Assembly: GCA_948467675.1 (NCBI GenBank)
Contig: CAOKFI010000003.1
Coordinates: forward strand, 1-64,000
DNA: 64,000 bases
Direction: 5' to 3'
DNA from: an uncultured Porphyromonadaceae bacterium
GTDB taxonomy: Bacteria > Bacteroidota > Bacteroidia > Bacteroidales > Muribaculaceae
In this document: in pieces, positions 42,652-60,996 of the stretch
How the letters are laid out: each line of letters opens with the position of its first letter
Position numbering within the stretch: the first letter of the stretch is position 1
Notes under the pieces: generated by a model
Told to the model about the DNA's origin: nothing
The model's database searches: none
What the model saw: the letters and a program-made list of their open reading frames with translations, nothing else
Position numbers and translations under genes: made by a program

Positions 42652-44640
42652 TCACTCCTGTTCGCGGATAGGATGATATTCGACGAATGCCTCTATGGCT
42701 TCGTAGGATGCGAGGCCGAGTCCTTCGTAGAGTTGTGCGGTAGCACGGTTGCGCTCTTCGGCGCGTTGCCAGAACAGACGGTCATCGTCGCCGAGGAACG
42801 GCGCGTTCTCCATCTGCGACTGGTGCTTGAGGATCGAATTGCGTTTGAAACGCAACTCCTCTGGCGAAATGGGCACTGCCATTTCGATATGGTCGATCTC
42901 CCATTCGGCCCATGCGCCGCGGTACATCCAGATACGGCAGTCTTTCATCCATGGCTCGTCCTTGACCTCATCTATCACAGCCAGCACGGCATCGGTACAT
43001 ACACGGTGGGTGCCATGCGGGTCGGCAAGGTCACCGGCCACGAATATCTGATGCGGTTTTACCGAACATATCAGATCACGCACGATATCGATGTCTTTTT
43101 CGCTAAGATCACCCTTCTTGATGGTACCGGTCTCGTAGAATGGAAGCCTCAGAAAATGCACGTTCTCTGGCTTTACGCCGATATAGTCGCATGCGGTGCG
43201 GGCCTCGCCCTGACGTATCATGGTCTTGATAAGACGCACATCGTCGGTATCCATGTCGCCTGACGCCTTTTTCTTGAGGAATGAGTTGATCTCATCGCTT
43301 TTTGTCTTGAATTCGGGTGTGTCGAATCCGAATGCGGGAGCGAGCTGATCCATCAGCATGATGTAGCGCATCATATCCTCATCGCCTACAGCTATGTTGC
43401 CCGATGTCTCGTAGGCTACGTGCACATCATGTTTCTGGTCGACGAGACGTTTGAGCGTTCCACCCATCGATATGACATCGTCGTCGGGATGCGGACTGAA
43501 TACTATCACGCGTTTGGGATACGGCTTGGCACGCTCGGGACGGTATGTGTCGTCGGCATCGGGCTTTCCGCCGGGCCATCCGGTGATGGTATGCTGAAGA
43601 TCGTTGAATATCTTTATGTTCACGTTGTAGGCCGATCCGTACAATGCCAGCAGCTCTCCGAGTCCGAAATCATTATAGTCCTTGTCGGTGAGTTTGAGAA
43701 TAGGCTTGCCAGTCTTGTGGCAGAGCCATACTATGGCACGGCGTATCAGCTTGTCTGTCCACTCGCAGTTGATCACTTTCCAGGGATGACTGATACGGGT
43801 AAGATTTTCGGCAGCGCTAAGATCTACGGCTATGCGTGCGTGCTGGTGTGTCTGCAGGAACGATGCCGGGATATTGGCTGTGATATCGCCTTCTACAGTC
43901 TGCTTTATGATCTCGGCGCGGTTCTCGCCCCAGGCCATTGCCAGAACCCGCTTGGCCGACAGGAGGGTGGACAGTCCGAGTGTGAATGCCGTCGTGGGTG
44001 CCACATCGCATTTATAGTCGGAGGCGATGCGCTGGCGTGTCTCACGGGTGAGAAGCACAAGACGGCAGGTGCTTGCCGGTGTGGTACCAGGCTCGTTAAA
44101 CGCCAGACATCCGTGAGGACCGATCTCGCATACGGTCAGATCTATGCCGCCGCAGTCCTTGATCTTCTCCTCATAGTCCATGCAATACTGATAGACTGTC
44201 TCTTTGGTGGCGGCGGCACTGAAGGAGTGTATATTGGCCGGACGTATATCTATATGATCCAGAAATACTTCATGGAGACGTGCGAGAGTGCTCGGTCCCT
44301 CCGGGGTCAACGGGAAGAATTCGCTTATATTAAATACGATCACACTCTTGAAGCTGACTTTGCCTTCCTTGTAGAGCTCGATAAGACGGGCATAGACCGG
44401 ATGAGTGCTGATACCGGCTCCGAGAGCGAGGACACAGCGTCCTTTCTCTGCCACATTGCGGTGGATTATCTCGACCACATGCTCTGCCAGATAGTCGCTT
44501 CCTTCGGGAACAGTCTCGAATATCCTGGTGTAGACTTTTTCCTCACGGGTAAGAGCCGCCAACTCCACTTCTCCTTGCGGAGCATAGTAGCGCTTTGGGA
44601 TATGGTCAAGTTTGATTTGTGAACTAAGGTTAGTTTTCAT
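42652..44640 (-). CDS. NagB-like domain fused to PIG-L/LmbE-type deacetylase
   Basis: This 662-residue cytoplasmic protein has an N-terminal domain of the glucosamine-6-phosphate deaminase (NagB) family (about residues 20-290) and a C-terminal PIG-L deacetylase domain (about 375-560, metal motif FSPHPDDDVISMGG). In the NagB domain three catalytic positions differ from the canonical enzyme: FNMDEY is FNISEF (Asp to Ser) and [10 protein letters not shown] is PHGCLAFNEP (Asp to His, His to Cys); the Glu is kept. This two-domain family (annotated as glucosamine-6-phosphate deaminase-like) is known in Bacteroidota. The deaminase activity is doubtful; the deacetylase part may act on GlcNAc-type substrates. 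It is divergent to nagB. Confidence 0.9.
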   Translation of the reverse strand: MKTNLSSQIKLDHIPKRYYAPQGEVELAALTREEKVYTRIFETVPEGSDYLAEHVVEIIHRNVAEKGRCVLALGAGISTHPVYARLIELYKEGKVSFKSVIVFNISEFFPLTPEGPSTLARLHEVFLDHIDIRPANIHSFSAAATKETVYQYCMDYEEKIKDCGGIDLTVCEIGPHGCLAFNEPGTTPASTCRLVLLTRETRQRIASDYKCDVAPTTAFTLGLSTLLSAKRVLAMAWGENRAEIIKQTVEGDITANIPASFLQTHQHARIAVDLSAAENLTRISHPWKVINCEWTDKLIRRAIVWLCHKTGKPILKLTDKDYNDFGLGELLALYGSAYNVNIKIFNDLQHTITGWPGGKPDADDTYRPERAKPYPKRVIVFSPHPDDDVISMGGTLKRLVDQKHDVHVAYETSGNIAVGDEDMMRYIMLMDQLAPAFGFDTPEFKTKSDEINSFLKKKASGDMDTDDVRLIKTMIRQGEARTACDYIGVKPENVHFLRLPFYETGTIKKGDLSEKDIDIVRDLICSVKPHQIFVAGDLADPHGTHRVCTDAVLAVIDEVKDEPWMKDCRIWMYRGAWAEWEIDHIEMAVPISPEELRFKRNSILKHQSQMENAPFLGDDDRLFWQRAEERNRATAQLYEGLGLASYEAIEAFVEYHPIREQE

Positions 44641-44829: not shown

Positions 44830-44837
44830 TATTTTTG
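44830..44837 (+). promoter_or_regulatory. -7 box TATTTTTG for nagB
   Basis: TATTTTTG matches TAnnTTTG and lies 69 bases before the nagB ATG. The leader is long enough to hold a regulatory site. Confidence 0.55.
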
Positions 44838-44906
44838 CGAAAATTATCATTTCTAACCGTGCATTCTCCCGCCGCCTTGGCGCCGCACACTAAATGCTTG
44901 AACCAA

Positions 44907-45716
44907 ATGAGATTAGTAATTCAAGAAAACTACGAGAACCTATCACGATGGGCAGGCAACTATGTAGCCGCCCGTATCAACGAAGCCGCTCCGACCGCAG
45001 AACACCCGTTTGTGCTCGGACTTCCCACCGGCAGCTCTCCTCTGGGCATGTACCGCCGTCTGATCGAACTCTACAAGGAAGGCAAAGTCAGTTTCAAGAA
45101 TGTTGTCACATTCAACATGGACGAATACTGCGGCATTCCTCAGGATCACGAACAGAGTTACCATACGTTCATGCACGAGAATTTCTTCAACCACATAGAT
45201 ATCCCGAAAGACAACATCAACATACTCAACGGCAATGCTCCCGATACAAAGGCTGAATGCAGCCGCTATGAGGAAAAGATAAAATCATACGGCGGTATCG
45301 ACCTGTTTCTCGGTGGAGTAGGCCCCGACGGCCACATTGCATTCAACGAGCCGGGATCGTCGCTCACCTCACTGACACGCATGAAGACCCTGACCCAGGA
45401 CACCATCATAGCCAACTCGCGTTTCTTCGGCGGAGATCTCAACCTTGTGCCAAAAACCGCGCTGACTGTAGGCGTAGGAACCGTAATGGCAGCCAAAAGC
45501 GTACTCCTCATGGTCAACGGCCACAACAAAGCCCGCGCGCTGAAACATGGCGTAGAGGGCGGCATCAGCCAGATGTGGACCATCTCGGCTCTCCAGCTCC
45601 ATCCGGCAGCCATAATCGTGGCCGACGAGGATGCCTGCGGAGAACTGAAAGTGTCGACCTACCGCTACTTCAAGGACATCGAGAGCGCCAACCTCGATCC
45701 TGACACACAGCTCTGA
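44907..45716 (+). CDS. nagB: Glucosamine-6-phosphate deaminase
   Basis: This 269-residue NagB converts glucosamine-6-phosphate to fructose-6-phosphate and ammonia. The catalytic segments are complete: [26 protein letters not shown], and the phosphate-binding [12 protein letters not shown]. Length matches the E. coli enzyme. The ATG at 44907 ([13 protein letters not shown]) is the family start; upstream in-frame codons are poorly conserved. It would receive GlcN-6-P made from MurNAc/GlcNAc salvage. Confidence 0.96.
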
Positions 45717-46262: not shown

Positions 46263-47516
46263 CTACAATGGCTGCCTGGCCGAGGTGTCGGTAATAAACG
46301 AGTCCTTGAACCCGAGGAAGTACAACACACCGTCGAGCCCTATAGTCGAAAGACTCTGCTCGGCGGTCTGCTTGACCTTCGGCTTGGCATGGAATGCGAT
46401 GCCGAGGCCTGCGGTTCCGAGCATCGGCAGATCGTTTGCACCATCACCGACAGCTATGGTCTGGGCTATATTGACATTCTCGACCTGAGCGAGCAGACGG
46501 AGCAACTCGGCTTTCCGGCGGCCGTCGACCACATCGCCGACATATCGCCCTGTAAGTTTACCGTCAATTATCTCAAGCTCATTGGCATATACATAATCGA
46601 ATCCATACCGCTGTTTGAGATAGTTGCCGAAGTATGTGAAACCGCCCGACAGAATAGCCGTCTTGAAACCGGCACGCTTCAGTACCGTCATCATACGATC
46701 AACGCCTTCGGTAACCGGAAGGTTCTCGGCTATCTCTTTCATCACGCTCTCATCAAGCCCTTTGAGCAGCGCCACCCGCTCGGTAAAGCTCTCCCGGAAA
46801 TCGATCTCACCGCGCATGGCCCGTTCGGTGATGGCTTTCACCTTGTCGCCGACACCGGCCCTGACAGCCAGCTCGTCGATTACCTCGGTCTCTATCAGCG
46901 TAGAATCCATATCGAAGCATATCAGGCGGCGGCATCTGCGGTACATAGTGTCTTCCTGAAGCGAGATATCGAACTCCTCGCGCGATGCGATCTCCATAAA
47001 ATAGCGCTGCATCTCATTGCGGTCGTAAGGATTGCCGCGTACCGACAGCTCTATACAAGTCTTGGAGAGCGGCTTGTCGCCGACATTAAGCGGCATACGT
47101 CCTGTAAGACGCTGTATTCCGTCGATATTGAGCCCCTGCTCCGCGATGACGCTTGTCACCAGCGCGATATGCCTGGCTGTCAGATGGCGGCCGAGTATGG
47201 TGATGATCCAGCGGTTCTTACCCTGCAGTCCCACCCACTCGTTATACTCATCGATTCCGATCGGCGAAAAACGGATCTGGACATTGAGCTCGTAGGCCTT
47301 GAACAGCATATCTTTCATTATGTCGCCGGAAACCGAACTGTCGGTACGCACAAGTATGCCCAGCGAGAGATTGTGATGTATATCGGCCTGTCCGATATCG
47401 AGGATAGCCGCATCGTATTTAGCCAGTATACCAGTAAGGGCAGATGTCACACCAGGACGGTCATATCCCGATATCGTAATCATGATCAGCTCTAAAGCCG
47501 GTTCTTTGTCAGTCAT
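46263..47516 (-). CDS. serB: Phosphoserine phosphatase with tandem ACT domains
   Basis: This 417-residue protein has two N-terminal ACT domains (from about residue 8 and residue 103, [17 protein letters not shown] and [16 protein letters not shown]). A HAD phosphatase domain follows with the nucleophile motif [13 protein letters not shown], the [10 protein letters not shown] segment and [11 protein letters not shown]. It performs the last step of serine synthesis. The ACT domains suggest amino-acid control. It lies at the distal part of a minus-strand gene train. Confidence 0.95.
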
Positions 47517-48269: not shown

Positions 48270-49112
48270 TCAGCAGTTGGCCTCGGCCATATCATGGCTG
48301 TGGGCACGGAACTCGTCGACAGCAGTCTTGACCGATCCGTACATGAGCAGCAGACGTCGCGACTTGTCGTAATCCAGTCCGAGCTCCTCCGACACCATTC
48401 TGGTGCCGCGATCCACGAGTTTGGCATTTGACAGCTGCATATTGACCATCTTGTTGCCTTTGACACGCCCCATCTTTATCATCACCGATGTAGTGATCAT
48501 GTTGCATATCATCTTCTGTCCGGTTCCCGACTTCATGCGCGAACTGCCGGTAACATATTCCGGACCGACGATCATCTCGATAGGGATATCGGATACCTCC
48601 GATACCGGTGCATCGGGATTGCTGGTGATCGAGGCCGTAAGAATACCGTGACGCCGGCACTCCTCTATGGCGCCGATCACATACGGTGTAGTACCGGAAG
48701 CCGCGATGCCTATCACGGTATCGAGCTCGCATATATCATAGGCCTTCAGGTCAAGCCAGCCCTGACGGGTATCGTCCTCGGCATTCTCCACAGGATTGCG
48801 CAGAGCCGTGTCGCCTCCCGCTATCAGACCTATAACCCATGTCGGTTCCATTCCGAAAGTCGGAGGTATCTCAGAGGCATCGAGCACCCCGAGGCGTCCG
48901 GAGGTACCGGCTCCTATATAAAATATGCGACCGCCACGCTTCATGCGCTTCACTATCTCGGTCACAAGTTTCTCTATCTGAGGCAACGCCTTTTCCACGG
49001 CAAGAGCGACTTTCTTGTCCTCCTCGTTTATATCATGAAGTATCTCCGCAACAGGTTTCTGCTCCAGATCATTGTAAAGCGACGGCTGTTCGCTTATCTT
49101 GACAAATGCCAT
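48270..49112 (-). CDS. murQ: N-acetylmuramic acid 6-phosphate etherase
   Basis: This 280-residue SIS-fold enzyme splits the lactyl ether of MurNAc-6-phosphate to give GlcNAc-6-phosphate and D-lactate. Family segments are visible: IFYIGAGTSGRLGVLDASEIPPTFG, IAGGDTALRNPVENAEDD and GSSRMKSGTGQKMICNMITT. It lies between the SGNH hydrolase and the BadF-type kinase, in the order murQ-murK-membrane protein known from oral Bacteroidota. Confidence 0.96.
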   Translation of the reverse strand: MAFVKISEQPSLYNDLEQKPVAEILHDINEEDKKVALAVEKALPQIEKLVTEIVKRMKRGGRIFYIGAGTSGRLGVLDASEIPPTFGMEPTWVIGLIAGGDTALRNPVENAEDDTRQGWLDLKAYDICELDTVIGIAASGTTPYVIGAIEECRRHGILTASITSNPDAPVSEVSDIPIEMIVGPEYVTGSSRMKSGTGQKMICNMITTSVMIKMGRVKGNKMVNMQLSNAKLVDRGTRMVSEELGLDYDKSRRLLLMYGSVKTAVDEFRAHSHDMAEANC

Positions 49113-49160: not shown

Positions 49161-50009
49161 TCACTCTGCGGCGGAATGGAAACGGATCAGACCTTCCATC
49201 GGGCTCTGCAGCACCGTGCCGACAGTGCAGTCCATGGCCGCCGCGGCTTCCTGCAGGACATCCCGGTAATAATAAGCCACGGATCCTACGAAGTTGACCG
49301 GCAGTGTCTTATAGTAATGATAGTGGGCTACATTACGCACAAAGAACGATTTAAATGAATTGAGAACAAGTCTGTGTATGGCCGGCTCCTCGATATTCTC
49401 GCAGAGAAAACGGGACACAGATGCCAGAAACCGGTTAGGCTGCGGCTCTTTGTAGACACGTTCTATAATGGTGGTGCGGTCAAGCTGATACTCATCCATG
49501 AACTTACGGCACAGATGATCGGGCAACTGCTGTTTCAGCACATCGCCGAGCAGAAGCCGTCCCAGTACCGCTCCGGAACCTTCGTCGCCGAGTATATATC
49601 CGAGAGGCGATACATTGTCGGCGATATTGCGTCCGTCGTAAAAACAGGAATTCGATCCCGTACCGAGTATGCATGCTATTCCAGGCCTGTCGCCACACAA
49701 TGCGCGCGCCGCGGCAAGCAGATCTGTATGCACCTCAACCACAGAAGCCGCGGGGATGTTTGCACGTATGGCACGTTCGACATTGGAACATACACTGCCA
49801 CTGATACATCCGGCCCCGTAATAATATACGCTATCGATGTCGTATCCTTCGATCTCCGGAACGAGTTCACACGCTATGCGGCCTGACATCTCCTCTTCGG
49901 AGAGCAACACGGCATTCATGCCGCCTGTGCAGACCCGTTTGACAACATCGCCACAGTCAACGATACACCAGTCGATCTTGGTGCTTCCACTATCAGCAAT
50001 AAGTATCAT
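49161..50009 (-). CDS. murK: BadF/BadG-type sugar kinase (MurNAc/GlcNAc kinase-like)
   Basis: This 282-residue kinase of the ASKHA superfamily has an N-terminal phosphate loop (LIADSGSTKIDW), the IACILGTGSNSCFYDG segment and GDEGSGAVLGR. That is the set seen in N-acetylglucosamine kinase/BadF-type proteins. The neighbours murQ and the membrane gene (4-base overlap at 50006-50009) point to phosphorylation of imported MurNAc, as for MurK of Tannerella. GlcNAc phosphorylation is also possible, so the symbol is tentative. Confidence 0.82.
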   Translation of the reverse strand: MILIADSGSTKIDWCIVDCGDVVKRVCTGGMNAVLLSEEEMSGRIACELVPEIEGYDIDSVYYYGAGCISGSVCSNVERAIRANIPAASVVEVHTDLLAAARALCGDRPGIACILGTGSNSCFYDGRNIADNVSPLGYILGDEGSGAVLGRLLLGDVLKQQLPDHLCRKFMDEYQLDRTTIIERVYKEPQPNRFLASVSRFLCENIEEPAIHRLVLNSFKSFFVRNVAHYHYYKTLPVNFVGSVAYYYRDVLQEAAAAMDCTVGTVLQSPMEGLIRFHSAAE

Positions 50010-51181
50010 ATCTTGATATATATCCGTTTTTTATATAAAATATAACCTATTATCCAGTTAAATCCGACAAAAGCCAAAGCAAACAGCAACGATGCCAACA
50101 TCTTATCGCCGCCACTCAAAGGCAACATAACAGCCCGGTAGATCCATCCGTGGAGCGAAGTGCTGCCATCGCCGTAAGCTACCGGCACCCGGCTGAGAAT
50201 GATGCTCATGACGGCTGCAAGCACGTACAGGAACAACGGATTGACACCGAATGCCTCAAAGAATCGACACCATCTCTTGTGACCCCTAATGTCGATAATC
50301 CACATAAGCAACCCAAGCAGACTTGCAGCCAGACCGCAGGTGGTCATAACAAAGGTAGGCGACCATATCTTTTTGTTGATCGGCAATCCGTAACTCAGCA
50401 AGAATCCTGCAAAGGTAAGAATTGTTCCGACAATAAACAGCGACTGCACGCGTTTATCATTGTCTTTGGTGCCCATCACAAGCATACCGCACCAAAATCC
50501 GATCAGCACATGCGCTACCGAAGGCAATGTGCTCAGCAGCCCTTCGGGATCGAGTTTTACCGGAACGCCATCGATCCAGTCGGTATACATGTGGGCTTCG
50601 CCAAGCACACACCGGTCCACTACTGCGATTATATTGCGCTCGGAAAATTCATAACCGTAACCGCACAACAACAATACAGTATAGGTCACAAGCATGCCGA
50701 CTACAAGCACCGGCAGCCATCTATGGCGCAATGTCACAGCCAGGACCGACGCAATACCATAACAAAGAGCCAGACGGGGGAGGACTCCGAGGATACGTAT
50801 CTGGTCGAAATTCATGGCAGCATCCAGCACCGCCTTTCCGGAGTGTATGCCTTTAAGAAACAGCCCCAGCCACGCTATGGCCAATCCGATAGCGAATATG
50901 GTCACCGTACGGCGCAGGATCTTGCGGAATGTCGGCCATGATGGAGTAAAATCATATTTCCGCAAAGAAATATAGGTCGATATTCCCATTATGAACATAA
51001 AGAACGGAAATACGAGATCCGTAGGAGTCAGGCCGTTCCATGAAGCATGCCTCAACGGGGCATACACGCTATTCCAGGAGCCGGGATTATTCACCAAAAT
51101 CATGCCGGCAATGGTTATGCCCCGCATGATGTCCAGCGAGAGAAGTCTTTTAGGTCTGTTTGCACTGATTGATTTATTCAT
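50006..51181 (-). CDS. HGSNAT/DUF5009-type membrane protein, candidate MurNAc transporter
   Basis: This 391-residue protein has about ten to eleven hydrophobic helices. Its N-terminal RLLSLDIMRGITIAGMILVNNPGSW and GLTPTDLVFPFFMFIMGIS are hallmarks of the heparan-alpha-glucosaminide acetyltransferase-like family (COG4299, NagX-type). It overlaps the kinase gene by 4 bases. In Tannerella forsythia a membrane protein encoded next to murK and murQ (MurT) imports MurNAc; whether this protein is its ortholog is from memory and needs alignment. Confidence 0.85.
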   Translation of the reverse strand: MNKSISANRPKRLLSLDIMRGITIAGMILVNNPGSWNSVYAPLRHASWNGLTPTDLVFPFFMFIMGISTYISLRKYDFTPSWPTFRKILRRTVTIFAIGLAIAWLGLFLKGIHSGKAVLDAAMNFDQIRILGVLPRLALCYGIASVLAVTLRHRWLPVLVVGMLVTYTVLLLCGYGYEFSERNIIAVVDRCVLGEAHMYTDWIDGVPVKLDPEGLLSTLPSVAHVLIGFWCGMLVMGTKDNDKRVQSLFIVGTILTFAGFLLSYGLPINKKIWSPTFVMTTCGLAASLLGLLMWIIDIRGHKRWCRFFEAFGVNPLFLYVLAAVMSIILSRVPVAYGDGSTSLHGWIYRAVMLPLSGGDKMLASLLFALAFVGFNWIIGYILYKKRIYIKI

Positions 51182-51203: not shown

Positions 51204-53999
51204 TTATCGTTCCGGTGTGGTACATTCGTCCACGAGATATACTATCGACTTATATAATACGCCGGAATTGGTCGTTAGTCCTATCTCACACGTACGACTG
51301 TTTGAATAACCCTTTCTCACGCCCGCTCTATCAAGTCCTAAACGCAGGTTTCGCAAGGCATATCGATTGATCTCAGGATGGGTGAAACCTTTGTCGCCCG
51401 CAAAGCCGCAGCAACCCACGCCTTCCGGAACAACCACATCACGGGCACACATACGGGCAAGAGCCTCCATCTTGTCGCCGATTCCCATCAGACGGCTCGA
51501 ACACGTGATATGTATCGCGACAGGCTCATCCACAGGATGAAACTCAAGATGCGGCGCCAGTATATCGTGGATAAACTCAACCGGCTCATACAGGTGCATG
51601 CTTGATATATGTTCCCTCATGCGGTGCAGACAAGGACTCTGATCGCATAGCACAGGCCAACGGCCTCCAGACGATGCCTCCGCGAGCGCCCGTTCGAGTT
51701 CGCGGACTTTACGTTCGGCAACCTCGGGCATGCCTTTACTTTCCCATATCATGCCGCAGCACAGATTGTCCATCCCATCAGGGAATATTACCTCATATCC
51801 AGCCTTGCGGCAAAGCGCCACCATGGTGTCGATAAGCGGACGAGGTTTATCACCTCCGTCCTCACGCGAGGCTCCCATGGTCTGATTGATGCAACTCGGG
51901 AAATAAACCACCTTACGGTCCGAGCTGCCGGTATCGAGCTTATGTCTGTAATATGCCGACGGAAGCGCAGGTGTCCAAAGCGGCATACCGGCACGGTGAA
52001 GCGCCGCACCGACTTTCTCCACTCCTGCAGGCCCGATGACCGCTCCGGCCATACTGGCCGCAGACAATACCGGACGCAGCATACTCTTGACTGTCTTCAG
52101 GCGACGGGCGGCAAGATCACCGGCACGGTACATCATCGATCCCTCCGGAATGTAGCCGGCTCTCAGATCGTGGATCAGATCGGCTGTATTTATGCCCATC
52201 GGACACGAAGTGCTGCACAGTCCGTCGCCGGCACAGGTATCGACTCCGATGCGGCGGAACTCCCGCGACAGTTCATGGAGGCGCCCAGAATCTTCGCCTG
52301 TGCGCATCAGGCGTGTTATCTCGCGCTGCACAGCTATACGCTGCCGGGCCGACAGCGAGTAGCCGCATGTCACGCAGTTGACCTCACAGAAACCGCACTC
52401 TATACACCGGTCTACATGGATGTCGGCCGGAGTCATGCTTTTGACACCGCGTATGAAACAAAGCGGATCATCATTGAATATCACTCCCGGATTGAGTATC
52501 CCGGCAGGGTCGAATATCTGTTTCAGCCTTCTCATCATCTCCCAGGCCTTGTGTCCCCATTCTTTCTCAACGAAAGGAGCCATATTACGACCTGTGCCAT
52601 GCTCCGCTTTCAGCGATCCGTCATATCGGTCCACGACCAGTTCCTCCACCCCTTTCATCAGATCGCAATACCTGCGGATCTCATCGTCGGTATCGAACGA
52701 CTGCGATATTATGAAATGATAATTGCCCTCGAGAGCGTGTCCGTAGATACAGGCATCGTCATATCCGTGATCAGCAAGCAACCGTTGCAGATCTACCGTG
52801 GCATCGGGAAGATCGCCGATATGAAACGCCACATCCTCGATCAATACGGTTGTTCCGACAGGGCGGGTGCCGCCGACAGATGGAAATATTCCGGAACGGA
52901 TGTCCCAGTATCTGGAATATTCGGCCGGATCGGATGTGAAATGTGCCGGCTTGTACAGCCTGAACGGACGGAGAATCTCAAGGATGGTGTCGATATTGGC
53001 CTGAAGTTCCGTCGGTGTATCAGCCTTGGTCTCGGTAAGGACAGCTGTAAGGCCGGTGCCTGTGGGATCTCCCACCGACGAAAGAGACTTGCTGTCGAGC
53101 AACTCCGCTCCCGATACCGGTCCGTTTTTCATGGCGACCACAGCCTCACAGGCCGTGCGCAGATCGTCGAAATAAAGCATGGCGCTTGCCGAACAGGGAT
53201 AAAGATGCGCGGTATCGACAGTCACCTCGCTCAGAAAGGCCAGTGTACCCTCCGATCCGACCATACAGTGCGCTATGATTTCGAACGGATCATCATACCT
53301 GACAAACGGAAGGAGATTCAGACCCGTCACATTCTTGATCGAATATTTATACCGTATCCGGTCTGTCAGTTCCTTGTCGGTACGGATATCGTCGCGCAAC
53401 CGCTCGATCCCGCGCACAAACCCAGGATGCGAACTACGGAATTCGTCGCGCGATTCGCTGTCACCGGTATCGAGCACCGTTCCGTCGGCCAGCACAATGC
53501 GCACCGACCTCAGTATCCTGTCAGAATTGGCATGGGTTCCGCAACTCATGCCGGAGGCATTGTTGATAACGATACCGCCCACCATAGCCGAATTTTTCGA
53601 TGCCGGATCAGGCGAGAACATACGGCCATAGGGCTTCAGCAACGCATTCACCCGGTTTCCGACAAGACCGGGCTGCATGGTGATCGTGGAGCCGTCGGGA
53701 GCCACCGAATACCGCTCCCAGTGCTTGCCGGCCACAATAAGTATGGAATCGCTTACGGACTGTCCTGACAGACTGGTTCCCGCCGCCCGGAAGGTAACCG
53801 GCAGATTATGGCGCGATGCTGTCTCAAGCAGCCTCGACACCTCACTCTCCGATGCCGACCGGATCACAACTTCCGGAGTACGACGGTAGAAACTGGCATC
53901 GGTACCCCACGCAAAACGGCGCAGGCCATCGGTGTAAATACGGTCGCCGGGGATAAACCGGCTTATGTCGTCGACATAGTTCCGATAAGTGATATCCAT
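51204..53999 (-). CDS. FAD/Fe-S oxidoreductase (D-lactate/2-hydroxyacid dehydrogenase-like)
   Basis: This 931-residue protein joins a GlcD-type FAD domain (residues about 35-480; FRAAGTSLSGQSVSD, VVINNASGMSCGTHANSD) to a ferredoxin-like region. That region has CIECGFCEVNCVTCG near residue 540 and CAGDGLCSTSCPMG near residue 595. A C-terminal part carries two CCG-type segments (NLCCGMIWES, GVGCCGFAGDKG). The layout is that of quinone-linked D-lactate or D-2-hydroxyglutarate dehydrogenases. Because murQ downstream makes D-lactate, D-lactate is the favoured substrate (inference). It is 30 bases after namZ and 22 bases before the membrane gene. Confidence 0.88.
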   Translation of the reverse strand: MDITYRNYVDDISRFIPGDRIYTDGLRRFAWGTDASFYRRTPEVVIRSASESEVSRLLETASRHNLPVTFRAAGTSLSGQSVSDSILIVAGKHWERYSVAPDGSTITMQPGLVGNRVNALLKPYGRMFSPDPASKNSAMVGGIVINNASGMSCGTHANSDRILRSVRIVLADGTVLDTGDSESRDEFRSSHPGFVRGIERLRDDIRTDKELTDRIRYKYSIKNVTGLNLLPFVRYDDPFEIIAHCMVGSEGTLAFLSEVTVDTAHLYPCSASAMLYFDDLRTACEAVVAMKNGPVSGAELLDSKSLSSVGDPTGTGLTAVLTETKADTPTELQANIDTILEILRPFRLYKPAHFTSDPAEYSRYWDIRSGIFPSVGGTRPVGTTVLIEDVAFHIGDLPDATVDLQRLLADHGYDDACIYGHALEGNYHFIISQSFDTDDEIRRYCDLMKGVEELVVDRYDGSLKAEHGTGRNMAPFVEKEWGHKAWEMMRRLKQIFDPAGILNPGVIFNDDPLCFIRGVKSMTPADIHVDRCIECGFCEVNCVTCGYSLSARQRIAVQREITRLMRTGEDSGRLHELSREFRRIGVDTCAGDGLCSTSCPMGINTADLIHDLRAGYIPEGSMMYRAGDLAARRLKTVKSMLRPVLSAASMAGAVIGPAGVEKVGAALHRAGMPLWTPALPSAYYRHKLDTGSSDRKVVYFPSCINQTMGASREDGGDKPRPLIDTMVALCRKAGYEVIFPDGMDNLCCGMIWESKGMPEVAERKVRELERALAEASSGGRWPVLCDQSPCLHRMREHISSMHLYEPVEFIHDILAPHLEFHPVDEPVAIHITCSSRLMGIGDKMEALARMCARDVVVPEGVGCCGFAGDKGFTHPEINRYALRNLRLGLDRAGVRKGYSNSRTCEIGLTTNSGVLYKSIVYLVDECTTPER

Positions 54000-54029: not shown

Positions 54030-55268
54030 TCATTTATATAGATAATACCTGGACGAGGCGCGGCGGAAAGGCTCTACATCCTTGTCCCAGTACGATCTCA
54101 TATCGTCTACGCGGCATTTTACGGAAAACCGGCGGCGTATCTCTTTACTGCCACATACCTTATCGAACATCGCATGACGCTTCGCATCGGATATGGCCAG
54201 CGGATTATGGTCAGGATACATCGCCGCCAGCTCCTGCATGACATAAAACTGTATAAGAGTAAGCGGAGCAATATTCCTGTCAGTAATATAACACTCCACA
54301 CCGCTGATGTTCTCGCCCTTGTAGGTAGAATAAAACGGTTTGATATGTATAGGGCGGAACCGGACCCCGGGTATGGATATAGAGTCAAGCCGCGCAGACA
54401 GAGCTCCGGCATCGACCCAGGGAGCGGCAAACAGTTTGAACGGCAACGTATAACCGACACCGATCGACACCACATAGAGATCGCCCAGAATACCGGACGC
54501 CGGATAATAGAGCGCGGTCTCTGCCGTCGGGATATGCGGCGACGGGAGCAGCCACGGCTGGCCTGTCTGATCAAACGGCATGTCGCGTGTCCAGCCCTCC
54601 ATCGGGACCACCTCCAGATCTACTTTCGCACCGTAGTGGAGCAGCCCCTCGTCGTTGAGATAGCGTGCGAGCTCACCGGGTGTCATGCCGTAAAGATACG
54701 GGATGGGAAAACGGCTCACAAACGACTCGCAGTCCGGCTCGACGAGACATCCTTCGATCTTGTTGCCGCCCACAGGATTCGGCCGGTCGAGCACCATGAA
54801 TTTCTTGCCGAGGGCGGCACATGCCTCCATCGCATTGCCCATGGTCGAAATAAAAGTATAGCTGCGGCAGCCTATATCCTGAATGTCATATACAAGCACG
54901 TCGACATCCTTCAGCATCTCGGCCGTAGGCTTCAGAATCTTGCCGAAGATAGAATATACGGTAACTCCTGTCGCCGGATCCTTGTAGCTGCCCACGTGAT
55001 CTCCGGCATAGACATCGCCGCGCACGCCATGCTCCGGCGAAAAGAGTGCGGTCAGCTCCACCCCGGGAGCCTTATGGAGAATATCTATGGTGGAGTTCAG
55101 ATCCCGGTCTACTCCTGTCGGATTGGTGATCAGACCTACACGCTTGCCCTGAAGTGCGGCGAAACCGCTATCGCGCAATACTTCGATTCCTACTTTTACC
55201 TGCGCTCCGGCGAAGACTGCTGTAAGCGTCAGCGCCAGAATGGTATTGAATATACGTTTCCTGTTCAT
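54030..55268 (-). CDS. namZ: NamZ-type exo-beta-N-acetylmuramidase (DUF1343, GH171)
   Basis: This 412-residue exported protein has a signal peptide (ILALTLTAVFAGA) and the DUF1343 domain. Visible segments are GKRVGLITNPTGVDRDL, the conserved LFSPEHGVRG, VYDIQDIGCRSYTFI, VLDRPNPVGG and PFDQTGQPWLLPSPHIPT. Family members release MurNAc from the non-reducing ends of peptidoglycan chains in the periplasm. It sits between the importer and the oxidoreductase, which fits supply of free MurNAc to MurK and MurQ. Confidence 0.93.
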   Translation of the reverse strand: MNRKRIFNTILALTLTAVFAGAQVKVGIEVLRDSGFAALQGKRVGLITNPTGVDRDLNSTIDILHKAPGVELTALFSPEHGVRGDVYAGDHVGSYKDPATGVTVYSIFGKILKPTAEMLKDVDVLVYDIQDIGCRSYTFISTMGNAMEACAALGKKFMVLDRPNPVGGNKIEGCLVEPDCESFVSRFPIPYLYGMTPGELARYLNDEGLLHYGAKVDLEVVPMEGWTRDMPFDQTGQPWLLPSPHIPTAETALYYPASGILGDLYVVSIGVGYTLPFKLFAAPWVDAGALSARLDSISIPGVRFRPIHIKPFYSTYKGENISGVECYITDRNIAPLTLIQFYVMQELAAMYPDHNPLAISDAKRHAMFDKVCGSKEIRRRFSVKCRVDDMRSYWDKDVEPFRRASSRYYLYK

Positions 55269-55291: not shown

Positions 55292-57208
55292 TCATTGTTT
55301 CCTTTCTTTGCGTCCGAACGCCGGATCGATTTTAAGAAATGCACACACTCCGATCGTGGCCACACAGCAGATCATGGTCCAGACAAAGAAATGACGGTAG
55401 CCGATAGTCTCCTGAAGCCATCCGGCAGCCATGCCCGGAAGCATCATTCCCAATGCCATGAATCCGGTACATATAGCGTAGTGCGCTGTCTTGTGGGTTC
55501 CTTCGCTGAAATAGATCAGATACAGCATATAGGCGGTAAAACCGAAACCGTAGCCGAACTGCTCTACGAATACGCATATATTGACCGTAAGCAGCGAATG
55601 ATCCTGGAAGTAGCTGAGATAAACAAATGTGAGGCAGGTCAGCGACATGCTCCAGGCCATTGGCCACAGCCATTTCCGAAGACCGCCGCGGGCAGCGGCT
55701 ATTCCGCCGATTATACCGCCGAGAGTAAGACCGATTATTCCCACAGTGCCATATACGAATCCGACCTGACCCGTAGTCAGCCCGAGACCGCCCTTATCGA
55801 CCGGATCGAGCAGGAACGGGTTTATAAGTTTCACCAGCTGAGCCTCCGGGAGTCTGTAAAGAAGCATGAACGCGATCGCAACCCAGATCTGCTTTTTGCG
55901 GAAAAAGGATTTGAATGTCTCTACGAACTCGCGGAATATTCCGGATGCAGAGCGTGCCGCTCCGGCGCTGCGATCGGCCGGTGGTGTCGGCAATGCCCAG
56001 CTGTGATAGATGCTTACGGCAAAAAAGAATACCGACAGGACAGCAAATACCATCATCCACGCGAACGGAATATTGCCGGAAACGCCTTCGAATCTGGCCG
56101 AGACAGGCTGCGTCAGTTTATGATCCACTTCGTAATAAAGATAGGCGGTCTTATTCCAGTTCTCCTCGTTGAATTCAAAACGCGTCGACAATCGGTTCTG
56201 CTCCAGACGTATGCTCTGATCACCATCCTTATATGTGAAATTGAGCACTATCGTTTCGCCTGATGCCGGTTTCTGCGACAGACGCACACCTGCAATAGCT
56301 ATATTATCGGCTATATCGCCTGCCGCCTCACGATTCTCTCCGAAAACAGCCTTGACCCAGCGGGTAAAAGCCCCGGTGCCTCCGGCTGCCTGCGCAGAGG
56401 CCGATGATGCGGCCGACTGTGTCGGCAACTCTTTACGCACAAAGCCGTTGGCCTCATTCAGCCGTTGCACGGAATCACGCATCATAGACGCATACGCACG
56501 GAAGGGCACTATACTGTCGCGGCCGGCTACTGTGACTGCGACTCCATCCTGCGGAGCCCGGGTGGCTACTGTCAGCTGCGGCGTAGCCGTATAGAACTGC
56601 ATCTCTCCTGCCAGATCCGCACCGGCATCGTCTATCCAGTCGGTTGTGACGGACGTATACTCGGCTGTCGGATCGGCATTGACCGTGATCTGCACCGGAG
56701 GAAGTCCGGAGTTTGTCTCGATAAGACCGGCGATTATCACCAGAAGTCCCTGGCCGGCAACAGTGGCTATACGGTAGAACGTGCTTCGTATGCCCACATA
56801 CAATGACTGTTCATGCTCTGTGAGCGCCAGCATATAGAATCCGTCGGCAGCGATATCGTGGGTCGCCGAAGTAAACCCGACGATCCAGAATACCGCCAGA
56901 GTCAACTGAAAGAAAAATGGCGCAGGAATCGAAAATGCTATTCCGGCAAGCGCGAATGCAATGATCCATTGCATTGTCAGAGTCCACCACCGTTTGGTGC
57001 GGATTATGTCGACAAACGGACTCCAGAACGGCTTTATGACCCATGGCAGATAAAGCCATCCGGTATACAGAGCTATATCGGTGTTGGATATGCCAAGGCG
57101 TTTATACATGATGACAGAGATGGTCATTACAGCCACGTAGGGCAACCCCTGTGCAAAATACAGTGTCGGAATCCATGCCCATGGCGAGCGTCGTTCAGTA
57201 TGATTCAT
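55292..57208 (-). CDS. AmpG-like MFS muropeptide transporter with a large extracytoplasmic insert
   Basis: This 638-residue MFS protein opens with PTLYFAQGLPYVAVMTISVIMYKRLG and GWLYLPWVIKPFWSPFVDIIRTKRWW, the AmpG signature. It is longer than usual: between predicted helices 5 and 6 lies an insert of about 200 residues (roughly 180-390). The insert has Thr/Gln/Ala-rich segments and beta-strand-like sequence and should face the periplasm. The C-terminal half is normal. It likely imports GlcNAc-anhMurNAc or muropeptides. It lies between the SpoIID-like gene and namZ, each about 22 bases apart. Confidence 0.9.
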   Translation of the reverse strand: MNHTERRSPWAWIPTLYFAQGLPYVAVMTISVIMYKRLGISNTDIALYTGWLYLPWVIKPFWSPFVDIIRTKRWWTLTMQWIIAFALAGIAFSIPAPFFFQLTLAVFWIVGFTSATHDIAADGFYMLALTEHEQSLYVGIRSTFYRIATVAGQGLLVIIAGLIETNSGLPPVQITVNADPTAEYTSVTTDWIDDAGADLAGEMQFYTATPQLTVATRAPQDGVAVTVAGRDSIVPFRAYASMMRDSVQRLNEANGFVRKELPTQSAASSASAQAAGGTGAFTRWVKAVFGENREAAGDIADNIAIAGVRLSQKPASGETIVLNFTYKDGDQSIRLEQNRLSTRFEFNEENWNKTAYLYYEVDHKLTQPVSARFEGVSGNIPFAWMMVFAVLSVFFFAVSIYHSWALPTPPADRSAGAARSASGIFREFVETFKSFFRKKQIWVAIAFMLLYRLPEAQLVKLINPFLLDPVDKGGLGLTTGQVGFVYGTVGIIGLTLGGIIGGIAAARGGLRKWLWPMAWSMSLTCLTFVYLSYFQDHSLLTVNICVFVEQFGYGFGFTAYMLYLIYFSEGTHKTAHYAICTGFMALGMMLPGMAAGWLQETIGYRHFFVWTMICCVATIGVCAFLKIDPAFGRKERKQ

Positions 57209-57230: not shown

Positions 57231-58559
57231 TCAATATAGTGTTTCGATTGATGAGCCGGGGAAATAATGCATCAGTATCCGGTCATAGGGTATCCCCTTT
57301 GCACCCATTACTGCGGCGCCGATCTGGCAGAGTCCGGCCCCATGCCCCCATCCGGCTCCATGCAGCACAAAACGTGCCGGTATGCCGTCGGCATCCATTC
57401 CGCTGCGCTCTACCACGAAGGCCGAGCTGTAGAGATGCGATTCCGACAGCCATTTGCGTATCTCGAGTTCTTTGCCCACAGTCACACTGCGTAGTGTGCC
57501 GCGTATAGACAGCCTGTAGATGCGTCCGGATGTACCACGCGCCAGCGGCTCCAGATCGATGATGCTTCCGAAGTCTATGCCTGAACGGCGCAACAGCAGG
57601 CCAGCCAGTTCCTGCTGTGTGTATTCAACCCTCCACCGGTAGAAATCCGAAGTCTCGCGGTCATAGTCGTTGAGCACCTGCGAGAGAATTTCCGGATCAG
57701 AGGTATTGCAATATGCACCGGGGGAGCCAAGAATCCAGGATCGTGCAGTGTCATCATATGTCAGATCCGGCAGATCCGACGGATCAATGCTGTCGCGACG
57801 AGCCTGTATATATGGATGACTGACCGGCTCCCAGCAGTTCTCAAATAGTTCCATAGCGCCGCCGCAACATTTCGAGAAACGGGCATCGCACAGATATCCG
57901 CCATACATCAGCACCTGGCCGCGTGTCGCCGCGACAGCATCGGCTACTGCCGGAGTGGTCTGGCGAAGCACACCCTGATAGCGCTGGCAGTGGTCATCGG
58001 CGCACACATCGAACCGGTCGTGGTCATCCCGGTCATACCACCGTATTATCTCGTCGAAGCCGGCATGTTGCTGTGACGCGACACATTCAGATGGCTGCGT
58101 AAGCGTACGCGTTTCCGCCATCTGGGCCAGAAGCCAGCTGCGCGATATCACGGCATGCGCCCTGAGCAGAGCAGGCGAGGCCGTGGCACTCATCTCCGAG
58201 GATATGACACTCAGCAGATATTCTTCGACCCCGACCACATTGACAGCCGTGATACCCTCAGTCCCCGACAGCATACGCAGCGAGCCTCTGAAACGTTGTG
58301 TCTCACGCCTTTCCCAATGAAAACTGACACCGATAGTCACATCTTCAAGATCGAACACAAACCCGTTGTCAAGCGGCTCGAAAAGAAGTTCAGCGCAAGC
58401 GGATCCATTCCACGGAATCAGTCCGTCGGCATTCATTTCCAGTTCTATGCGGCCGGACACGATGTCTGCGCCACAACGGAATCCACCATGAAACACCACA
58501 CTGATCCGTCGGGATGTCATAATACCGACCTGTACCTGCGGTTCACGCGTAAGCCTCAT
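57231..58559 (-). CDS. SpoIID/LytB domain protein
   Basis: This 442-residue protein matches SpoIID. Landmarks are AVNVVGVEEYLLSVISSEMSATASPALLRAHAVISRSW (with the conserved SEM and Ala-rich helix), the VASQQHAGFDEIIRWYD segment and the late GAGWGHGAGLCQIGA. SpoIID proteins cut denuded glycan strands or activate amidases. No signal peptide is visible, so its compartment is unclear. The ATG at 58559 overlaps the upstream stop by 4 bases (ATGA); earlier in-frame starts lie inside the neighbour. Confidence 0.9.
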   Translation of the reverse strand: MRLTREPQVQVGIMTSRRISVVFHGGFRCGADIVSGRIELEMNADGLIPWNGSACAELLFEPLDNGFVFDLEDVTIGVSFHWERRETQRFRGSLRMLSGTEGITAVNVVGVEEYLLSVISSEMSATASPALLRAHAVISRSWLLAQMAETRTLTQPSECVASQQHAGFDEIIRWYDRDDHDRFDVCADDHCQRYQGVLRQTTPAVADAVAATRGQVLMYGGYLCDARFSKCCGGAMELFENCWEPVSHPYIQARRDSIDPSDLPDLTYDDTARSWILGSPGAYCNTSDPEILSQVLNDYDRETSDFYRWRVEYTQQELAGLLLRRSGIDFGSIIDLEPLARGTSGRIYRLSIRGTLRSVTVGKELEIRKWLSESHLYSSAFVVERSGMDADGIPARFVLHGAGWGHGAGLCQIGAAVMGAKGIPYDRILMHYFPGSSIETLY

Positions 58560-59506
58560 CGTTCTATCTTGTTTCGTACAGCGTCGGCAACAGCGCTTAC
58601 CTGTCCGGGAGTCATACACACTTCAGCCAATATCTCCTTGATACGGTCGGCGGTCAATGCATCGAAGTCCTTTTCAAGAGGGGTGATGAACACTCCGCCA
58701 AGATCGACCGACGCCGGGCTGATCAGCATGGTGTCAGTACCATCCGAGCCGTAGCACGACGGCCGGTGACGGAGACGCGGTATCACAATCAGACGCACAC
58801 CGGAGCCACAGGCATAGCAAAGCAGATTCATCATCGGCTCCTCACCGTCCGACGGCTGCGGAAGCGAATCGTAGAGAGCCGCGAACAGGCTCTCGCCGTC
58901 AGCCGCAGTTTCCGCATCTATCACCAACACACCCATAGGCATTCCCGCGACAGTCGAAAGCCGCGCGCTTCCGACGCAGACCGACTCCGACAACCGGCTC
59001 TGTCCAACAGCCTGAGGCAATGTGAGAAAATCCGTATTGCCGGCCTGAAAGTGCATGTGATCCGGCGCAGACGCCCCGCACCGCGGGCCATTGTAGAACA
59101 CTGTATACCCGTCTAACGCAATAGCCATACTCATCATGTGCCCTATACGCCCCGCTATGCGCTGCTCAGTATGTGCATTCAGCGGGATAGTGAAATGACG
59201 CGGAAAAATCGGAAACGGATTGATCAGTACTGTATAATCGCCCCATGGCAGACCGCGCTGCTGAGCAGGCCGGTTGGATCCGCACAAAAAACAGGGACGG
59301 GCCTTGAGCGATGCGGCATCGACCTTGGCTCCGGACGATACTATACGCGCAGGATTGAACTGAACCTTCATTATTATGCCGTCGATATCGATCTCACGGA
59401 CACGCACACCATCCAGAGCAGCGTAGTTGCTGCCGGCCATAGGCCACTCCGCCAATTGTGCGCGCAGCAGATCCTCGGCCTGTATATGCAGATCTGGAGA
59501 GCTCAT
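58556..59506 (-). CDS. DUF4922 (HIT/GalT-like) protein
   Basis: This 316-residue cytoplasmic protein has the Cys pair segment RPCFLCGSNRP and the HIT-type motif DHMHFQAGN (His-x-His-x-Gln). PFPIFPRHFTIPLN places it with the GalT/Ap4A-phosphorylase superfamily, known in Bacteroidales as DUF4922. Such enzymes move nucleotidyl groups on sugar phosphates. It overlaps both neighbours by 4 bases, so it belongs to the peptidoglycan gene train; a nucleotide-sugar role is inference. Confidence 0.88.
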   Translation of the reverse strand: MSSPDLHIQAEDLLRAQLAEWPMAGSNYAALDGVRVREIDIDGIIMKVQFNPARIVSSGAKVDAASLKARPCFLCGSNRPAQQRGLPWGDYTVLINPFPIFPRHFTIPLNAHTEQRIAGRIGHMMSMAIALDGYTVFYNGPRCGASAPDHMHFQAGNTDFLTLPQAVGQSRLSESVCVGSARLSTVAGMPMGVLVIDAETAADGESLFAALYDSLPQPSDGEEPMMNLLCYACGSGVRLIVIPRLRHRPSCYGSDGTDTMLISPASVDLGGVFITPLEKDFDALTADRIKEILAEVCMTPGQVSAVADAVRNKIER

Positions 59507-60996
59507 CGGTGATCGTTCATGGCTATACGCGCCTGGAGTTCCCAGGTGCGTATGCGGTCTTTATAGAGATTGTTGGCATTCATTTTGACCACATCGAGCG
59601 ATGCGTCGGAATTGTCCTCCCACCGGCGGCAGCAATACAGTTCGTCATATATACGTCCTATCCTGTGTTCGCGCGAGAATGCCAGTCCGAGCGCATAATC
59701 CTCGCCATAACTCGTATTTGGTATATGTATTTCCCTGAGCATGGCGGTGCTGAACGCTCTTGGCGCTCCGAGACCGTTTATACGCAGGGCATTGTTGCGC
59801 CCATTGTCCGGTGTCCACTCCTTATGGTCGATAAGACCCGGAGGAATGGTGTTGAGATCGATATCCGTAAGCCTGTACGATCCGACCACCATGGCACACT
59901 TCTGCGCATAAAACGCTTCCACGATCCTGGCAAGGGTAGCGTCCGACGAATACACGTCGTCACTGTCGAGCTGCACTGCAAACTTACCGCACCGCGGATC
60001 ATGAACCGCCATGTTCCAGCAGCCGCCGATGCCCAGATCGGCACGTTCGGGACAAAGGTGGATCAGACGCGGATCAGACGCGGCAATCTCTGCCAGCGCT
60101 TCGGTCGTACCGTCGGTGCTGTGATTGTCGATCACTATCACATTATAGCGGAATCCGGCTTTCTGGCTCAGCGCGCTCCGTACGGCATCGCGGATAGTGC
60201 GTATACGGTTGCGTACAGGTATTATCACGGAAGCCTCTACCGGGAAATCGCTGTCAGCGCCGAACTCAGCGTCACTGAACTGAGGGGCAAGATACCCCCC
60301 TACGGCTTTAAGATGGGCTGTACACGCCTGCTCCATCTCTATCTGGGATGCCCGGTTGCGAGGATCCACATAATCGAATATTTTCTCGCCCGAACGGCGC
60401 ATATCGGTAGCGACATCGCTGTACAGATATTCGTTGATGTGGACTATTGACCCCTCGCGCGACAGACGCAGACGCAGGTCATACATACCGGCGGCCTTGT
60501 AGTCGGCATCGATGCCGGCAGCAGCCTTTTTGAAGCAGGATGTACGGAATACCGTTACCGATCCGAAGTTGAAATCATCGCGTAACGATCCGAACTGGTA
60601 ATCGATCACCGGAGCATTGCGGCGTATACCGTCCACGACCTCATAATAATCGGCGTATACCATAGCAGCGCCGGAATCATCCGCGATCCAGAGCATGCGG
60701 TCAAGTGCGTAATACCCTAATTCAAGCGTATTGTACTTGCTGTAACACAACATATATTCCGACGACGCCTCCCCTGCCATAGCCTTGACAGTCGCGGAGC
60801 TCACAAGCGAGTCCTCTACAAGGATTTCGCATCCGTCCAACGCCGGCAGCGACTTGTCCGATGTCAGCAGATATATCTTACCGGTCAAATCTGATGACCG
60901 AAGATTACAGACCGTGGCCTTCACCTGTTCCGGCGAGGCATACGGAATAAAGCAGTCAATACGTTTTGCGTTCATATAGTCATTTAAAATTATCAT
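59503..60996 (-). CDS. Glycosyltransferase family 2 protein
   Basis: This 497-residue protein has a GT-A domain in its second half: ASVIIPVRNRIRTIRDAVRSAL, NVIVIDNHSTDGTTEAL and the metal motif QLDSDDVY. The N-terminal 240 residues look like a second, partial GT-A-like fold (DCFIPYASPEQVK, MVYADYYEV). The start at 60996 overlaps the upstream stop by 4 bases; a Met seven codons later (60975) is an alternative. The acceptor is unknown. Its place in a peptidoglycan-salvage operon is unexpected and interesting. Confidence 0.88.
   Translation of the reverse strand: MIILNDYMNAKRIDCFIPYASPEQVKATVCNLRSSDLTGKIYLLTSDKSLPALDGCEILVEDSLVSSATVKAMAGEASSEYMLCYSKYNTLELGYYALDRMLWIADDSGAAMVYADYYEVVDGIRRNAPVIDYQFGSLRDDFNFGSVTVFRTSCFKKAAAGIDADYKAAGMYDLRLRLSREGSIVHINEYLYSDVATDMRRSGEKIFDYVDPRNRASQIEMEQACTAHLKAVGGYLAPQFSDAEFGADSDFPVEASVIIPVRNRIRTIRDAVRSALSQKAGFRYNVIVIDNHSTDGTTEALAEIAASDPRLIHLCPERADLGIGGCWNMAVHDPRCGKFAVQLDSDDVYSSDATLARIVEAFYAQKCAMVVGSYRLTDIDLNTIPPGLIDHKEWTPDNGRNNALRINGLGAPRAFSTAMLREIHIPNTSYGEDYALGLAFSREHRIGRIYDELYCCRRWEDNSDASLDVVKMNANNLYKDRIRTWELQARIAMNDHR

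Follow-up and report, generated by a model that had tools for sequence, protein, structure and literature searches.

The closest described system is the peptidoglycan/MurNAc salvage operon Tanf_08345-08385 of Tannerella forsythia, which was found by RT-PCR to be carried on one transcript (PMC5388701, PMC5790795, PMC7670621). Upstream glycosyltransferase genes, LytB/SpoIID, AmpG, MurK and MurQ are found there in the same order as in the window (this term refers to the whole stretch of 64,000 nucleotides that was analysed). The fate of the D-lactate released by MurQ has seldom been asked about. In C. glutamicum engineered with MurQ, lactate accumulates during growth on MurNAc (PMC6165865). Mycobacterium bovis BCG uses the lactyl part of MurNAc as a carbon source, and its authors suggest O2-dependent L-lactate dehydrogenases (PMC6572805); this is a different route, with no dehydrogenase inside a NamZ-MurK-MurQ operon. 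No description of a D-lactate dehydrogenase in a MurNAc salvage operon was found in the open-licence literature, and nothing relevant was found, by title and abstract, on Muribaculaceae combined with D-lactate and peptidoglycan.

The window, from a gut bacterium of the order Bacteroidales, carries a run of genes on one strand, SpoIID/LytB-ampG-namZ-DLD-nagX-murK-murQ, in which AmpG, NamZ, MurK and MurQ follow the T. forsythia order; Tanf_08370 is taken here to be NamZ. The features are:

57231..58619, (-): SpoIID/LytB-domain protein; upstream part of the salvage operon, conserved.
55292..57208, (-): ampG-like muropeptide MFS transporter, 638 aa; family models.
54030..55268, (-): namZ, exo-beta-N-acetylmuramidase; both NamZ domains (5.8e-85 and 1.5e-36); close solved relative, 4k05.
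51204..53999, (-): DLD, predicted FAD and Fe-S D-2-hydroxyacid (D-lactate) dehydrogenase, 931 aa; ATG start, stop inside the coordinates.
53466..53876, (-): FAD_binding_4 of DLD, aa 42-178 (Pfam, 3.7e-32).
52482..53189, (-): FAD-oxidase_C of DLD, aa 271-506 (Pfam, 6.4e-46).
52191..52415, (-): 4Fe-4S dicluster of DLD, aa 529-603 (Pfam Fer4_8, 7e-8).
51333..51908, (-): cysteine-rich (CCG) part of DLD, with two motifs, C703...C747-C748 and C833...C863-C864.
50006..51181, (-): nagX/HGSNAT-like membrane protein; domain and family models.
49161..50009, (-): MurK-type N-acetylmuramate kinase; closest PDB chains 1zxo, 8oqw and 8ow9 ('putative novel MurNAc kinase').
48270..49112, (-): murQ, MurNAc-6-phosphate etherase, the D-lactate source; curated models and clear solved relatives.

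The intergenic gaps are 30 bp (namZ-DLD), 22 bp (DLD-nagX) and 48 bp (murK-murQ), and nagX and murK overlap by 4 bp. Promoter and terminator scans gave counts close to background. The MurQ of the window reaches 365 bits with NF003915 (cut-off 168) and 301.1 bits with TIGR00274, marginally below the cut-off of 302. In T. forsythia, the MurNAc transporter MurT is encoded before murK; in the window, this interval is occupied by DLD and the NagX/HGSNAT-like gene (50006-51181), and no murT was found beside murK, where the nagX-like protein stands in its place.

Family matches of the AmpG-like protein fall into two blocks (about residues 13-129 and 382-630); some 250 aa in the centre lie outside the best-stretch model matches. 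Genes for SpoIID/LytB, DUF4922, GT2 and golvesin-domain proteins are found upstream of ampG (57231-63665), are similar to the upstream section of the operon in T. forsythia and are kept upstream of ampG in 46-54 of 81 loci. A fusion of glucosamine-6-phosphate isomerase-like and PIG-L deacetylase-like domains (42652-44640) is encoded close to the salvage genes, and a further isomerase-like ORF is present at 44835-45716.

In DLD, FAD_binding_4 and FAD-oxidase_C are fused to a 4Fe-4S dicluster and a CCG part. The dicluster cysteines are C532-x2-C535-x2-C538-x3-C542 and C589-x5-C595-x3-C599-P. The Pfam CCG match covers aa 827-889 (2e-5); C703...C747-C748 is an extra CCG-like motif beyond this match, and its cysteines, like those of C833...C863-C864, are invariant in 18 aligned homologues. 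No second FAD-oxidase_C protein was found in the same genome, DLD being the sole one. The first-pass annotation had described a FAD and Fe-S protein of the D-lactate/2-hydroxyacid dehydrogenase type between namZ and a membrane protein in the same train; the ORF, the Pfam matches and the neighbours all agree with this description.

The same neighbours recur elsewhere. A scan of GTDB contigs for DLD gave 80 loci, labelled mostly Muribaculaceae or Bacteroidales. In these other genomes, the gene directly upstream of DLD is namZ in 59 of the 73 loci that could be assessed, and the one directly downstream is nagX in 70 of 75, so the placement of DLD is not due to chance; murQ lies no more than 4.5 kb away in 58 of 63 loci, and the median gaps are about 40 bp. 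In six loci (L015, L016, L018, L019, L021, L022), DLD keeps nagX-murK-murQ and namZ and the upstream genes were not found nearby. In two loci of Bacteroidaceae (L080, L081), DLD is present and the salvage genes are absent from its vicinity.

The residues essential in mouse LDHD (Arg347, His398, His405, Glu442, His443; PMC10589216) correspond in a profile alignment to R368, H421, H428, E466 and H467 of DLD. These are located in the FAD-oxidase_C domain and are invariant in 18 homologues; the whole LDHD catalytic set is thus present. The side-chain pocket of mouse LDHD is hydrophobic (Val101, Trp351, Ser365, Ile407), and its Ala363 is replaced by Tyr in GlcD (PMC10589216). LDHD W351, A363, S365 and I407 align to F372, V385, I387 and I430 of DLD, in the same domain and all hydrophobic, which gives a pocket suited to a C3 methyl according to a sequence alignment with LDHD at about 20% identity; V385 is Cys and I430 is Val in some homologues. 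At pocket positions, D2HGDH has Thr390, Lys401 and Asn443. Lys401 was tried as a discriminator and is poor alone, because YdiJ-type enzymes likewise have no Lys there; the position two residues after the His discriminates better. E. coli YdiJ has Arg at this position (I430 in DLD, two after the second metal His), as do the common Bacteroidales paralogues of about 980 aa. The YdiJ-type clade is separate from DLD with 100/100 support in a tree of which, because of its long branches, only this separation is used.

That DLD would be a YdiJ-like enzyme oxidising D-2-hydroxyglutarate made by SerA is extremely unlikely. It belongs to the same superfamily as the YdiJ-type enzymes, serB (46263-47516) adjoins the cluster in the window and a SerA-like protein is encoded in the genome; against this, DLD scores 138.8 bits with the YdiJ model (NF049975, cut-off 1350), the YdiJ clade stands apart with its Arg at the I430 position and without the first CCG motif of DLD, and serB is found in just 9 of 81 DLD loci. 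A role in D-2-hydroxyglutarate oxidation proposed from the nearby serB was rejected on the grounds of pocket residue, clade and conservation. DLD also scores well below the cut-off of the model for the glycolate oxidase GlcD (TIGR00387: 177.7 bits, cut-off 567.9).

The AlphaFold2 model of DLD has a mean pLDDT of 86.6 and a pTM of 0.84. Foldseek places D-lactate dehydrogenases at the top of its matches (TM 0.86-0.89 by target), with D-lactate bound in some of these structures, and D2HGDH ranks below them; since the match covers just the flavin half and the folds are all alike, it is weak support for the substrate. The residues of the active site point to D-lactate rather than D-2-hydroxyglutarate or glycolate, the fold agrees, and DLD very probably oxidises the D-lactate released in MurNAc salvage.

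The first-pass annotation had proposed a survey of the co-occurrence of DLD with murQ, as a test able to refute the link. Its outcome is strongly favourable to a link, also for families in which DLD and murQ lie apart. The searches for DLD (called at 55% identity or more) and for murQ covered one set of 197 home-family genomes: both were found in 93, neither in 102, DLD alone in 1 and murQ alone in 1 (Fisher p = 1e-54, shared ancestry ignored). The contig of the sole genome with DLD alone (G219) ends after namZ-DLD-nagX-murK. Counted by genus, 15 have both and 11 have neither. In a sample of 198 genomes of the order, murQ was found in 16/17 DLD carriers and 29/181 others (Fisher p = 7e-11, shared ancestry ignored) or, counted by family, in 12/13 DLD families and 16/96 others. 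Without the families whose DLD is part of the murQ operon, the counts are 9/10 and 16/96 (p = 5e-6, phylogeny uncorrected). One carrier (G002) has DLD (55%) without murQ. Since 29 murQ genomes of the order sample do not have the DLD subfamily, the coupling is optional. A class-wide search is uninformative for this question because, besides the genome of the window and one more of its order, only relatives at 35-38% identity from one family passed. The genomes of the GTDB locus scan and of these surveys may overlap, so the sets are not independent.

The home-family pattern could come from a few block gains or losses. DLD and murQ are at most 6 kb apart in 68 of the 93 home-family genomes having both, and the pattern tracks genera, as would be expected if the linkage were an inherited gene order gained or lost as one block, with no mutual functional need. 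This explanation is very unlikely: the co-occurrence persists in genomes with the two genes apart, namely some of genus g159 and those of nine other families that pair DLD with murQ although DLD sits outside the murQ operon, and DLD is also joined to namZ in f8, in a different arrangement, and in f37, as a pair. Two genomes of g159 (G330, G350) have an intact salvage operon that does not contain DLD, which lies elsewhere in the same genome; a third (G333) has the operon and no DLD. Two other genomes (G170, G120) have the operon without DLD and DLD elsewhere. In G037 (f37), a namZ-DLD pair is distant from murQ. In G007 and G114 (f8), a relative with 45-46% identity to DLD is divergent from namZ, beside GT2-DUF4922-SpoIID genes. 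Given these loci, the association of DLD with murQ has survived relocation, in more than one arrangement.

No common theme was found among the neighbours of relocated DLD genes (g159, G002, G120): those in g159 are CotH kinase genes and a small protein, whereas G002 has sugar-isomerase-like and CinA genes and G120 a PAS/hemerythrin protein. The small protein of g159 (about 100-160 aa) is encoded directly upstream of DLD in all four loci (L109, L110, L111, L112); two members were searched and gave no Pfam match. Some home-family genomes carry a sister subfamily (34-39% identity) with the motif GHARDGN(I/V)HPL (L104-L108); murQ is absent in 5/5 of these genomes.

As the genome of the window has no lactate permease family (Lactate_perm), no LUD-domain proteins (LutBC) and no LdhA orthologue (best matches 33%, the first being a SerA-like ORF with a SerC-like neighbour), MurQ is its main evident source of D-lactate. 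Another route could be provided by a methylglyoxal-synthase-like protein of the same genome (128.6 bits, under the family cut-off of 146.9). It is highly improbable that DLD serves to clear D-lactate of such a methylglyoxal/glyoxalase route, which has this protein in its favour and leaves both the operon position and the co-occurrence with murQ unexplained.

Alternatively, DLD could be a general scavenger of D-lactate from other gut bacteria, its position in the salvage operon being incidental. In one genome (G012, locus L098, 1795-10415), a DLD relative interrupted by stops is the last gene of a lactate operon, LctP-unknown-LutA-LutB-LutC-DLD relative, and in the order sample a lactate permease is found in 4/17 DLD carriers and 8/181 others. 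However, 13/17 carriers, including the genome of the window, have no Lactate_perm family, this genome also has no LUD protein, and DLD tracks murQ far more tightly than it tracks lactate permease; a scavenging role is considered unlikely.

The preferred reading, held with good confidence, is that DLD is a NAD-independent FAD/Fe-S D-lactate dehydrogenase and a dedicated part of MurNAc salvage. MurQ sets D-lactate free during salvage and DLD would oxidise it. Arg368 would grip the substrate carboxylate, a metal at His421/His428/Glu466 would bind the carboxylate and the hydroxyl, His467 would act as the base, and the hydride would pass to FAD. Electrons would then move from FAD through both 4Fe-4S clusters and the cysteine-rich CCG region; menaquinone would probably take them up and pass them to cytochrome bd (subunit I is encoded in the genome) or a fumarate reductase. 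Menaquinone is proposed because of the Fe-S/CCG layout and of the Dld of S. oneidensis, whose presumed electron acceptors are quinones (PMC5432575). We infer the substrate, the quinone acceptor and the in vivo flux; in this scheme, D-lactate would be oxidised and its electrons passed into the respiratory chain rather than lactate being excreted. Across hundreds of genomes DLD occurs almost only together with MurQ, so the lactyl side chain probably serves as an energy source and is not discarded.

The functional tie of DLD to MurNAc salvage, already put forward in the first-pass annotation, is backed by the co-occurrence with murQ and by the active-site residues, and on this genomic evidence is well supported. 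It is on balance probable that a dedicated D-lactate dehydrogenase subfamily evolved as a module of MurNAc salvage in Muribaculaceae-type and related Bacteroidales, so that peptidoglycan scavenged in the anaerobic gut would yield GlcNAc as well as respiratory electrons, and D-lactate from cell-wall turnover would be consumed, not released. This murQ-tied subfamily offers a directly testable answer on the fate of MurQ-released D-lactate in widespread gut bacteria. It is a possible marker for the use of MurNAc-derived lactate, may bear on gut D-lactate levels and allows better annotation of proteins usually named by their FAD and Fe-S domains alone.

Among known enzymes, DLD is likened to the Dld of Shewanella oneidensis (SO_1521) by its proposed role, a NAD-independent D-lactate oxidation feeding quinones; the gene of the latter adjoins lldP and lldEFG (PMC5432575). 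That arrangement resembles the DLD relative beside LctP-LutABC in G012; the S. oneidensis gene sits with lactate uptake and the DLD of the window with MurNAc salvage. Mouse LDHD (8jde and others) and the Porcellio gut D-LDH (9qit) have the same flavin-half fold as DLD, and mouse LDHD, the one used for the residue comparison, agrees with DLD in the classes of its catalytic and pocket residues; the solved chains of both (about 455-471 aa, about 19-24% identity to DLD) are without the Fe-S and CCG half. E. coli YdiJ shares the fused FAD and Fe-S layout and differs by its separate clade, the Arg in its pocket and one CCG motif fewer. As for the locus, the operon of the window follows the known salvage plan of the T. 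forsythia type, with DLD and nagX in place of murT.
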